This document shows, piece after piece, positions 24,058 through 27,079 of a stretch of DNA of 64,000 nucleotides. Every line of letters begins with the position of its first letter. The first letter of the stretch is position 1. The notes below the pieces were generated by a model. It was not told where the DNA came from, searched no databases, and saw nothing but the letters and a program-made list of their open reading frames with translations. Made by a program: the position numbers and the translations under genes. The stretch comes from Methylobacillus gramineus (lineage in GTDB: Bacteria > Pseudomonadota > Gammaproteobacteria > Burkholderiales > Methylophilaceae). Where the stretch lies: positions 310,001-374,000 of the forward strand of contig NZ_JAJAVE010000003.1 of NCBI RefSeq assembly GCF_020532675.1. The letters are read 5' to 3'.

Positions 24058-25335
24058 TTAGTTTTCCGGGTCGCTTTCCTGCAGTTCAATCGCGGCTGCG
24101 AGCAAGGCAAGCCTGGCGACCACGCCATAGGCATAGAAGCGGTTAGGCGGTGCATCTGGTGCCCCGGCACAATCCGGGGTGGAGCAAGGCGTTTCAAATG
24201 CCAGCGGTTCAAAGTGCATGCCCGGGGCATTGAGGTTTTCATCTGCACCGCGCGAGGTATGCACGCGATAGAACCCGCCCACCACAAAGTGATCCATCAT
24301 ATAAATCACGGGTTCGGCGACGGCATCATTGAGGTGCTCAAACGTGTAGACACCTTCCTGAATGATCACTTCACTAACTTGTAAGCCTTCCTTGACTACG
24401 GACATCTTGTTACGTTGCTTGCGGTTGAGGTCACGGACATCGTCTGGGCTTTTCACCGTCATGATGCCCATACCATAAGTGCCTGCATCCGCTTTGACAA
24501 TCACGAATGGTTCTTGAGTGACGCCGTATTCAGCATATTTCCGCCGTATTTTCCCCAGCAGTTCTTCCACTTTTTCCGCCAGGCATTCTTCTCCGGTACG
24601 GGCATGAAAGTCGATTTCACCGCAGGTTTCGAAATAGGGATTGAGTAGCCATTCATCGATATCAATTAATTGCGCAAATTCTTTGACCACCCGGTTATAC
24701 GCAGCAAAGTGCTGCGATTTGCGCCGGGTCGCCCAACCTGCGTGCAATGGGGGAATGAGTGACTGTTCCAGGTTCTGTAATATGTCCGGAATACCACCAG
24801 ACAGGTCGTTGTTCAGGAGGACTGCGCAGCTGTCAAAATCCTCCAGCACCAGACGATTGCCCTGGCGTTTGACTGGTTCAAGCAGGATGCTATTGCCGTC
24901 ATGAGTCTCCAGGAAAGTAGGAGCTATAATTTCCGGTGAAATGCTGCCTATGCGTACTTCAAGTCCAGCCTGGCGCAATATATGGGTCAATGCGTATACA
25001 TTGCGCAAATAAAAAGTATTGCGCGTATGGTTTTCTGGAATAACCAGCAACCGGCGTGCTTCCGGGCAGATTTTCTCCACGGCGATCATGGCGGCTTGTA
25101 TACAGAGCGGCAGAAAGTCTGGATTGAGGTTATTGAAACCGCCAGGAAACAGGTTGGTATCCACGGGAGCAAGCTTGAAGCCGGAATTACGCAGATCCAC
25201 AGACGCATAGAATGGTGCGCTGTTTTCCAGCCATTGGGTACGGAACCAATGTTCAATACGCGGCATACTTTCCAGCAGGCGTTTTTCCAGGGTAAGGAGT
25301 GGACCGTTTAAAGCAGTAGTCAGGTGCGGAACCAT
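24058..25335 (-). CDS. gshA: Glutamate-cysteine ligase GshA (beta/acidithiobacillus-type)
   Basis: Catalyses gamma-glutamylcysteine formation, the first and usually rate-limiting step of glutathione synthesis. The 425-residue protein belongs to the separate GshA family found in betaproteobacteria and acidithiobacilli, recognised by FRTQWLENSAPFYASVDLRN, KLAPVDTNLFPGGFNNL and FVIVKADAGTYGMGIMTV. It is not the larger enterobacterial type. The start ATG (25335) has a poor ribosome-binding site. An inverted repeat (25353-25370) lies just upstream, possibly an operator. It is transcribed with gshB and lies downstream of the strong minus-strand terminator at 25402-25429, so it needs its own promoter. 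Confidence 0.95.
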   Translation of the reverse strand: MVPHLTTALNGPLLTLEKRLLESMPRIEHWFRTQWLENSAPFYASVDLRNSGFKLAPVDTNLFPGGFNNLNPDFLPLCIQAAMIAVEKICPEARRLLVIPENHTRNTFYLRNVYALTHILRQAGLEVRIGSISPEIIAPTFLETHDGNSILLEPVKRQGNRLVLEDFDSCAVLLNNDLSGGIPDILQNLEQSLIPPLHAGWATRRKSQHFAAYNRVVKEFAQLIDIDEWLLNPYFETCGEIDFHARTGEECLAEKVEELLGKIRRKYAEYGVTQEPFVIVKADAGTYGMGIMTVKSPDDVRDLNRKQRNKMSVVKEGLQVSEVIIQEGVYTFEHLNDAVAEPVIYMMDHFVVGGFYRVHTSRGADENLNAPGMHFEPLAFETPCSTPDCAGAPDAPPNRFYAYGVVARLALLAAAIELQESDPEN

Positions 25336-25370: not shown

Positions 25371-25401
25371 GCTGATTTTAGCCTAGATGCATGTAAAGGG
25401 C

Positions 25402-25429
25402 TAAAAAAAGAGGGCGCTTAACGCGCCCT
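25402..25429 (-). terminator. Intrinsic terminator of the predicted small RNA
   Basis: On the minus strand, AGGGCGC-GTTAA-GCGCCCT forms a 7-bp GC-rich stem with a 5-nt loop, followed one base later by seven T. It does not end an ORF. It lies about 77 bp downstream of the expected sigma-54 start site, so it would end a roughly 100-nt transcript. Confidence 0.85.
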
Positions 25430-25506
25430 GAGGAGGAGGAGATAATGCATAAAACTAGGCAGTAAGATGTTCAGAGTCTTGCGACGTAAAGAGCACATTA
25501 CGCTTG
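25403..25506 (-). ncRNA. Predicted sigma-54-dependent small RNA with CU-rich anti-SD tract
   Basis: No ORF explains this stretch, yet it is bounded by a near-perfect sigma-54 promoter (start expected about 25506) and a strong terminator (25402-25429), giving a transcript near 104 nt. Immediately before the terminator stem (25430-25444) the RNA reads AUCUCCUCCUCCUCA, a CU-rich tract complementary to Shine-Dalgarno sequences and a common sRNA seed. Its last eight nucleotides (CCUCCUCA) pair perfectly with the glnK ribosome-binding region (27434-27441). The context between gshA and amtB and the NtrC-like sites upstream point to nitrogen control, comparable in logic to NtrC-activated NrsZ of Pseudomonas. 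Expression is not shown; the inference rests on the promoter-terminator pair. Confidence 0.65.
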
Positions 25507-25514
25507 CTTAATAA

Positions 25515-25533
25515 CTAGCAATTGCCGTGCCAG
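25515..25533 (-). promoter_or_regulatory. Sigma-54 (RpoN) promoter for the predicted small RNA
   Basis: The minus strand reads CTGGCACGGCAATTGCTAG: the -24 GG and -12 GC are separated by exactly 10 bp, and flanking bases match the RpoN consensus TGGCACG-N4-TTGC in full. The expected start is around 25506. No gene starts downstream on this strand before the terminator. Confidence 0.85.
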
Positions 25534-25591
25534 TTTTTTGGGGCTCAATATGAAGAATTTTCAGGGTGGAAGCGATTAAATCGTCATAAAT

Positions 25592-25619
25592 TGGTGCAAT
25601 GCTGCTCTGATTTAGTGCA
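25592..25619. promoter_or_regulatory. Candidate NtrC binding sites
   Basis: About 85-110 bp upstream of the predicted sRNA start. One full TGC-N11-GCA element spans 25603-25619 and a TTGGTGCA half-site lies at 25591-25598. This fits the NtrC consensus (GCACC...GGTGC) and the usual enhancer distance for RpoN promoters. The sites are imperfect. Confidence 0.5.
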
Positions 25620-25645
25620 CGCTGTTGCCCCCTCGCGGATAAAAC

Positions 25646-25671
25646 AAAACAGGCGCCTAGGCGCCTGTTTT
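25646..25671 (-). terminator. Intrinsic terminator of glnK-amtB
   Basis: A perfect 26-bp palindrome whose 13-bp half is AAAACAGGCGCCT, 22 bp after the amtB stop on the minus strand, with a T-run on its 3' side. It separates amtB transcription from the sRNA promoter downstream. Confidence 0.88.
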
Positions 25672-25693
25672 GCATTGTCATACCGCCTAAGGA

Positions 25694-27079
25694 TTAATAG
25701 TGGTAAGCACGTTCACCGTGTTCAGAAGTATCAAGACCTTCGCGCTCAGATTCTTCACTGGCACGCAGACCAATCACCACGTCCACAATCTTGAACAGGA
25801 TGTAGCTGCCAATACCGCCCCAGACAATGGTCACGCCCACAGCCACAGCTTGTGCGTACAGCTGGCTACTCATGGTGACGCCTTCTTCGTAGCCTACGCC
25901 ACCGAAGTCAGCACTCATCAGGATGCCGGTACCGATAGCACCGATCAGGCCTGCCACACCGTGAATGCCAAATACATCCAGGGAGTCATCGTAGCCCAGC
26001 TTGGCCTTGAGGCTGGTCACTGCCCAGAAGGCGACGATGCTAGCCACGAAGCCAAGAATGATGGCGCCAACCGGACCCACAAATCCGCAAGCTGGCGTAA
26101 TGGCAACCAGGCCTGCAACCGCGCCGGACACAGCACCCAGCAAGGAAGGCTTGCCCTTGAACAGCCATTCAGCAAACAACCAGCCTAATACAGCAGCTGC
26201 AGTAGCGGCTTGTGTGTTGATTAGCGCCAGGCCAGCAGTACCGTCAGCAGCCAGTTCACTACCTACGTTGAAGCCGAACCAGCCCACCCACAGTAAAGAT
26301 GCACCGATCATGGTCAGGGTGATGCTGTGTGGAGGCATGGCTTCCTTGCCGTATCCGACACGTTTGCCAATCACAATGGCACCTACCAGGGCAGCAATAC
26401 CAGCGTTCAAGTGAACCACTGTACCACCGGCAAAGTCAGCGGCGCCAAGTTCACCGAGGAAACCACCGCCCCATACCATGTGGGCGATTGGAATATAGAT
26501 GAAGGTGACCCACAGGGCGAGGAAAGCCAGTACCGCCGGGAATTTCATGCGCTCTGCAAAACCACCGACGATCAGTGCGGGCGTAATGGCTGCAAAGGTA
26601 AGCTGGAAGGTCACGAACACATATTCAGGGATAGTGCCGCCATCGAGCAATGTGTCAGGCTTGATCCCTGCCAGCAATGCTTTGCTGAAGCCGCCAATAT
26701 AGGCATTGAGGCTACCACCGTCAGTGAATGCCAGGCTGTAGCCATAGACTATCCAGATGACAGACATCAGCGCAGTGGTAACAAACACTTGGGTGAGTAC
26801 CGACACCATGTTCTTGGTGCGGACCAGGCCGCCGTAGAATAATGCCAGCCCAGGGATAATCATCGCCAGTACCAGCACCGTGGCCACAATCATCCAGGCA
26901 GTATCGCCAGCACTTAATGCCAGTGCAGCGTCGGCCGCAGGTACCACTTCTGCTGCGGCTGCAGGAGCCACTTCGGTGGTGACAGTTTCGTCAACGATAA
27001 CAGTTGTTTCTTCAGCCAGTGCAAAGCCTGAAAAGCCCAGTGCGCTGACCAATGCAATCATGGAGAGAATTTTTTTCAT
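25694..27079 (-). CDS. amtB: Ammonium transporter AmtB
   Basis: A 461-residue Amt-family ammonium channel. The signal peptide (residues 1-22, ending FALAEE) precedes an acidic/alanine linker and about 11 TM helices. Family motifs include LFYGGLVRTKN, GGFAERMKF, VWGGGFLGELGAADFAGG and VHLNAGIAALVGA, and the second pore-lining His lies in DVFGIHGVAG. I chose ATG 27079 (AAGGGG upstream); the longer frame runs into glnK. The C-terminal tail that GlnK contacts is present. It follows glnK by 10 bp in one operon, the standard arrangement for GlnK control of ammonium uptake. Confidence 0.97.
   Translation of the reverse strand: MKKILSMIALVSALGFSGFALAEETTVIVDETVTTEVAPAAAAEVVPAADAALALSAGDTAWMIVATVLVLAMIIPGLALFYGGLVRTKNMVSVLTQVFVTTALMSVIWIVYGYSLAFTDGGSLNAYIGGFSKALLAGIKPDTLLDGGTIPEYVFVTFQLTFAAITPALIVGGFAERMKFPAVLAFLALWVTFIYIPIAHMVWGGGFLGELGAADFAGGTVVHLNAGIAALVGAIVIGKRVGYGKEAMPPHSITLTMIGASLLWVGWFGFNVGSELAADGTAGLALINTQAATAAAVLGWLFAEWLFKGKPSLLGAVSGAVAGLVAITPACGFVGPVGAIILGFVASIVAFWAVTSLKAKLGYDDSLDVFGIHGVAGLIGAIGTGILMSADFGGVGYEEGVTMSSQLYAQAVAVGVTIVWGGIGSYILFKIVDVVIGLRASEESEREGLDTSEHGERAYHY

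Follow-up and report, generated by a model that had tools for sequence, protein, structure and literature searches.

A predicted sigma-54-dependent small RNA with an anti-Shine-Dalgarno stretch between amtB and gshA in Methylobacillus gramineus and related Methylophilaceae

What does the interval between the ammonium transporter gene amtB and the glutamate--cysteine ligase gene gshA encode in Methylobacillus gramineus? The window analyzed here, a stretch of 64,000 nucleotides, carries amtB at 25694..27079 (TIGR00836, 453.9 bits against a cut-off of 343.3) and gshA at 24058..25335 (TIGR02049, 640.8 bits against a cut-off of 293.9), both on the minus strand, and the identities of these genes and of glnK were confirmed with NCBIfam models. 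A preliminary description had placed between them a minus-strand RNA of about 104 nt, made from a full-consensus RpoN promoter and ended by an intrinsic terminator with seven T. Few lineages are known to have small RNAs that NtrC and sigma-54 switch on when nitrogen is scarce. Both signals are present: the sigma-54 promoter box TGGCAC-N5-TTGC (TGGCACGGCAATTGC; 25518..25532, minus strand) has 0 mismatches, and a terminator scan returned a seven-T terminator at 25403..25429 on the same strand, whose stem (25429-25411) has 7 pairs, 6 of them GC, and is followed by CTTTTTTT. With its start placed from the -12 element, the predicted sRNA spans 25403..25505 on the minus strand, about 103 nt. The amtB transcript had been credited with a terminator of its own, and an inverted repeat with 21-nt arms, 86% complementary, indeed lies at the amtB end (25638..25679); the minus strand is T-rich after it, and it is probably the amtB terminator, although it is absent from the output of the terminator scan.

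By itself the exact box is weak evidence, as the window holds two such boxes where 0.46 are expected and at least two occurred in 9 of 100 shuffles, which is not significant in 64 kb. The other exact box, at 28391-28377 on the minus strand, comes before a gene for a TorF-like porin (TIGR02001), which is itself followed by glnK and amtB; inspection by eye of the 180 bp preceding this box found no complete NtrC-like palindrome. The genome encodes rpoN, ntrC, and hfq.

Conservation sets the locus above chance, for the box, the RNA, its CU-rich stretch, and the terminator are all retained among relatives. A DNA similarity search of 61 genomes gave matches in 12, and box, RNA, and terminator are kept together beside gshA in 10 of these; within the genus this holds for all six genomes found by DNA similarity. 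Among these six Methylobacillus genomes the mean pairwise identity of the sRNA is 88.9%, rising to 92.1% for the portion up to CUCCUCC, compared with 31.5% in the 60 bp that precede the box, 45.4% in the 44 bp 3' of the terminator, and likewise 45.4% for gshA fourfold sites. The stem and T-run of the terminator are kept in 10/10 sequences of alignment A1, where conservation is conditional, as it is in alignment A3, because the members of both (10 and 18 loci) were selected by similarity. A covariance model (R1), built from the RNA alone without the promoter and searched against 187 genomes of the family, matched 32 of them at E<=0.01. All 19 matches at E<=1e-5 carry a sigma-54 box, and the distance from the start of the box to that of the model is 27 nt for 17 of them and 28 and 38 nt for the other two; the nine matches that were not part of the model all carry a looser form of the box. 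Among the 11 weaker loci (L033-L043), five have a box, and amtB adjoins four of those five. The neighborhood is retained as well, as gshA adjoins 23 and amtB 23 of 26 loci examined, with both present at 20. The preliminary description had made its proposal depend on whether sister species keep the promoter and terminator. The six genus genomes do, and the nine new model matches elsewhere in the family carry the box. Finally, the pattern of box, seed, and T-run was sought in 84,980 named species and turned up in 15 stretches. Title or contig identity with genomes of the family assigns 14 to Methylophilaceae, and one comes from a Bacteroidetes bin; the titles include Methylobacillus, Methylovorus, Pseudomethylobacillus, Methylotenera, and Methylophilaceae, and two betaproteobacterial bins fit genomes of the family.

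Upstream sites point to NtrC as the probable activator. NtrC-like sites had been placed 85-110 bp before the RNA start, and what survives is one palindrome (GCACTAAATCAGAGC; 25604..25618, minus strand), which matches 7/8 half-site letters of the consensus GCAC-N7-GTGC and lies 99-113 bp 5' of the predicted start, whereas the second is by reading of the sequence a weak half site with 5/8 letters (GCACCAATTTATGAC; 25583..25597, minus strand). Matches of 7/8 are not rare, with 30 in the window where 45 are expected, and therefore the palindrome counts solely through its conserved position among relatives. This position was evaluated at 26 loci that had been selected by the looser box, which takes the exact form at 18: a match of at least 7/8 begins 70-115 bp upstream of the box at 22 loci, where shuffles predict 0.81, and all eight letters match at 15, where 0.02 are expected. 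Counting matches in the coding end of amtB would raise the first figure to 25/26, but 22/26 is the one to be used; outside that coding end L028, L031, and L036 lack an NtrC-like site, and at L003 the site is at -183. Thus the two marks of an NtrC/sigma-54 sRNA, a sigma-54 box at the RNA start and upstream NtrC-like sites, are both found here.

The RNA itself folds somewhat better than shuffled sequences (z -2.08; 4/200 shuffles as good), and predicted folds of 18 sequences all begin with a hairpin region, which an unpaired linker joins to the terminator. Within the structured 5' half, a small hairpin, GUC-GCAA-GAC (25476..25485, minus strand), has a covariation score of 0.456 in A3 compared with 0.265 in shuffles, none of 500 of which reach it, a score that the relatedness of the 18 sequences can inflate; 81.7% of its cells are paired in A3, and a fourth, outer pair fails in 10/17 sequences including that of the window. 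The best-conserved part of the sRNA is a CU-rich stretch, UUAUCUCCUCCUCCUC (25430..25445, minus strand), which is complementary to Shine-Dalgarno sequences. Within it UUAUCUCCUCCUC is invariant in 10/10 sequences of A1 and CUCCUCCUC in 18/18, and the mean unpaired probability predicted over 18 sequences is 0.96 for CUCCUCC and 0.49 for the part preceding it. Conserved letters are also found elsewhere in the 5' half. In its predicted folds the RNA thus displays the conserved, unpaired CUCC-rich stretch of anti-Shine-Dalgarno sRNAs.

Based on these sequence features, we consider it probable that the locus encodes a trans-acting anti-Shine-Dalgarno sRNA of about 103 nt, driven by phosphorylated NtrC and sigma-54, and that the genome has at least one more sigma-54-driven RNA of this design. 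It would probably be switched on under nitrogen shortage. From the palindrome, some 100 bp upstream, phosphorylated NtrC would under nitrogen limitation activate RNA polymerase with sigma-54 bound at the box (25532-25518). The transcript would have three parts, namely a 5' hairpin that drifts in sequence, the unpaired CU-rich linker with UUAUCUCCUCCUC, and the terminator, and the linker would pair with GAGGAGGAGAUAA-like Shine-Dalgarno sequences in a group of mRNAs and block their translation, probably with assistance from the Hfq that the genome encodes.

As a possible mark of targets, the motif GGAGGAGA-N3-10-ATG has six matches in the own genome against two for the control. Four of the six begin open frames, 72 to 416 aa long, which by reading of the sequence include genes for a second ammonium transporter, a CBS-domain protein, and a small membrane protein; over six genomes it has 47 matches against 23 control matches, and this motif-ATG search revealed no convincing target set conserved across the genus. 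The apparent second ammonium transporter gene (L111; G000:C1:391255) has a strong GGAGGAGA ribosome-binding site with a pairing energy of -16.4 and is a candidate target. Pairing of the seed with glnK has energies of -8.4 to -14.3 in seven named records (-14.2 in the window), which is not exceptional, as 7/48 window ORFs, with uncertain starts, match or beat it. The lack of a clear conserved target set, together with the additional conserved letters of the 5' half, would agree with a real RNA that works chiefly by sponging up, say, a protein or a different RNA and not by pairing with Shine-Dalgarno sequences. We regard such a role as unlikely, given that the CU-rich stretch is both the best conserved and unpaired and that it recurs in sister RNAs that are otherwise different.

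Less probable still is that the box feeds gshA and that the RNA is a sigma-54 leader whose terminator acts conditionally as an attenuator. The arrangement is suggestive, as gshA follows in the same orientation at 23/26 loci and only about 67 bp separate the terminator from the gshA start codon in the window. However, a -10-like element, TAAAAT (25375..25380, minus strand), lies 3' of the sRNA terminator and is probably part of gshA's own promoter; elements of the form TA(A/G/T)AAT occur within 75 bp past the terminator at 23/26 loci, comprising 22/23 of those adjoining gshA and, in addition, L030. Furthermore, the RNA is kept before another gene (ArsR-like by reading of the sequence) at L036 and L042 and before gshB at L030, and in the predicted folds CUCCUCC is unpaired and no anti-terminator was seen. 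We therefore judge the leader improbable, chiefly on account of the -10-like element past the terminator.

The preliminary description was mistaken in stating that there is no ORF between box and terminator, as a 26-codon ATG ORF spans 25418..25498 on the minus strand, and the transcript could in principle serve as a short mRNA that encodes a small protein. Yet start codons, frames, and peptides differ among the 18 sequences, frame and peptide are kept in none of 17 relatives, and L002, L003, and L005 have no ATG at the position; we reject this reading as highly improbable and judge the ORF fortuitous. That box and terminator have come together by chance, with no RNA made, would agree with the non-significant number of exact boxes in the window but is the least credible reading of all, given the conservation of box, RNA, and terminator.

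The sRNA that we favor has a sister within its own genome. A second predicted RNA with a sigma-54 box, CUCCUCC, and a terminator lies between glgA and orn (G000:C1:942897; L044:1501-1589), neighbors named by NCBIfam, and combines the box, a hairpin AGCUUU-CUCC-AAAGCU, CUCCUCC, and the terminator in about 62 nt. In other genomes glgA is the neighbor at 15 further loci, and, with a single exception, the next gene along is orn or glgP. No NtrC-like site occurs within 200 bp at any of 17 glgA-type loci (1.42 expected), a count that leaves out an eighteenth locus, L060, whose T-run missed the filter and which is likewise missing from the list of folds; alignment A4, which does not include L056 and L070, has poor register and was for that reason not used for pair counts. 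The glgA-orn RNA would be a second sigma-54-driven RNA of the same design, which, having no NtrC-like site, probably answers to another activator. This sister RNA, the anti-Shine-Dalgarno stretch, and the short ORF are absent from the preliminary description.

Across the family, the pattern box-N28..88-CUCCUCC occurs in 104/187 genomes and 22/24 genera, with three matches for the reversed control, and some matches, for example L068 and L072, which have no T-run, look like chance. Units of box, hairpin, CUCCUCC, and terminator are found in a third place, at glyA (L053-L055, L102, and L103, in genera g10 and g14; the neighbor was named by NCBIfam for L054 and read from the sequence for L102), and L053-L055 have NtrC-like sites at -96 to -99. 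With a stricter pattern, 40/384 genomes of the order outside the family match, against nine control matches, and a T-run comes next at 4/17 loci returned by the pattern search and at 13/15 picked by eye. Loci L090-L098, from other families of the order, have in common a box, a hairpin-like stretch, UCUCCUCCGAGAGCGGUU, and a terminator, and an Rfam scan of L090, L091, L092, L094, and L097 gave no match. Some of these out-of-family loci precede transporter genes and may be leaders, and thus a wider distribution is only a lead. Within the family, rpoN is present in 176/187 genomes and an ntrC match exceeds the cut-off in 152/187. Genera g13 and g15 and part of g7 have no pattern, and most g13 and g15 genomes keep rpoN and many ntrC; co-occurrence with the regulators therefore gives no support to the link. 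Loss of the RNA in streamlined genera through loss of rpoN or ntrC is not borne out either, as each of the two regulators is found in many g13 and g15 genomes.

How does this sRNA relate to known ones? The CcsR, or cuckoo, RNAs of Rhodobacter share a CCUCCUCC-type motif with it, and they are alphaproteobacterial and driven by stress sigma factors. Rfam holds no family that matches above threshold either the window sRNA or the 18 loci with related RNAs. MmgR of Sinorhizobium (RF00519) resembles it in that its Rfam consensus has a hairpin, an unpaired UUUCCUCCCU-like stretch, and a terminator, but the score of 20 bits is below the gathering score of 41 and MmgR is alphaproteobacterial. MmgR is described as induced by nitrogen depletion (PMC9049629), and the title of a paper cited there speaks of positive NtrC regulation. 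NrsZ of Pseudomonas is described as a nitrogen-regulated sRNA made by NtrB/C and RpoN, about 226 nt long and processed, which lies in the ntrC-PA5126 region and activates rhlA translation (PMC8395346). The type of control, suggested here by the sites, would be in common with NrsZ as so described, whereas place and description set the two apart: the present RNA has about 103 nt, the amtB-gshA locus, and a CU-rich anti-Shine-Dalgarno stretch, and ntrC lies about 34 kb past the end of the window. The alpha-r14 RNAs, including NfeR1, are nitrogen-responsive and carry CCUCCUCCC anti-Shine-Dalgarno motifs in unpaired regions; they are reported to have three hairpins with a motif in each, to be repressed by NtrC, and to have a promoter without a sigma-54 signature (PMC10746234), whereas in its predicted folds the present RNA has a single CU-rich stretch, unpaired and flanked by a 5' hairpin on one side and the terminator on the other. 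By score and by design, then, it belongs neither to the Rfam mmgR family nor to the alpha-r14 type. Bordetella S17 was set aside, being made from a sigma-A promoter (PMC11722255). We found no description of the sRNA in the open-access literature, the body of work to which the search was confined, and a term search of the main text of a transcriptome paper (PMC3728764) found no instance of small RNA, ncRNA, non-coding, or intergenic. On these two grounds, no Rfam match and no open-access description, the suggestion that the RNA might be undescribed stands, and it appears to be so.

We tentatively raise the possibility, for which we would not claim even odds, that in this family, and perhaps in Betaproteobacteria, sigma-54 has a dedicated post-transcriptional arm, in which short anti-Shine-Dalgarno RNAs of the same design at the unrelated loci amtB-gshA, glgA-orn, and, in some genera, glyA would let each activator silence a shared pool of mRNAs. 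If the reading of the amtB-gshA locus is true, methylotrophs would gain an sRNA regulator of nitrogen starvation under NtrC and sigma-54, and the place of the sister RNA next to glgA hints that sigma-54 and nitrogen may be tied to the storage of glycogen.
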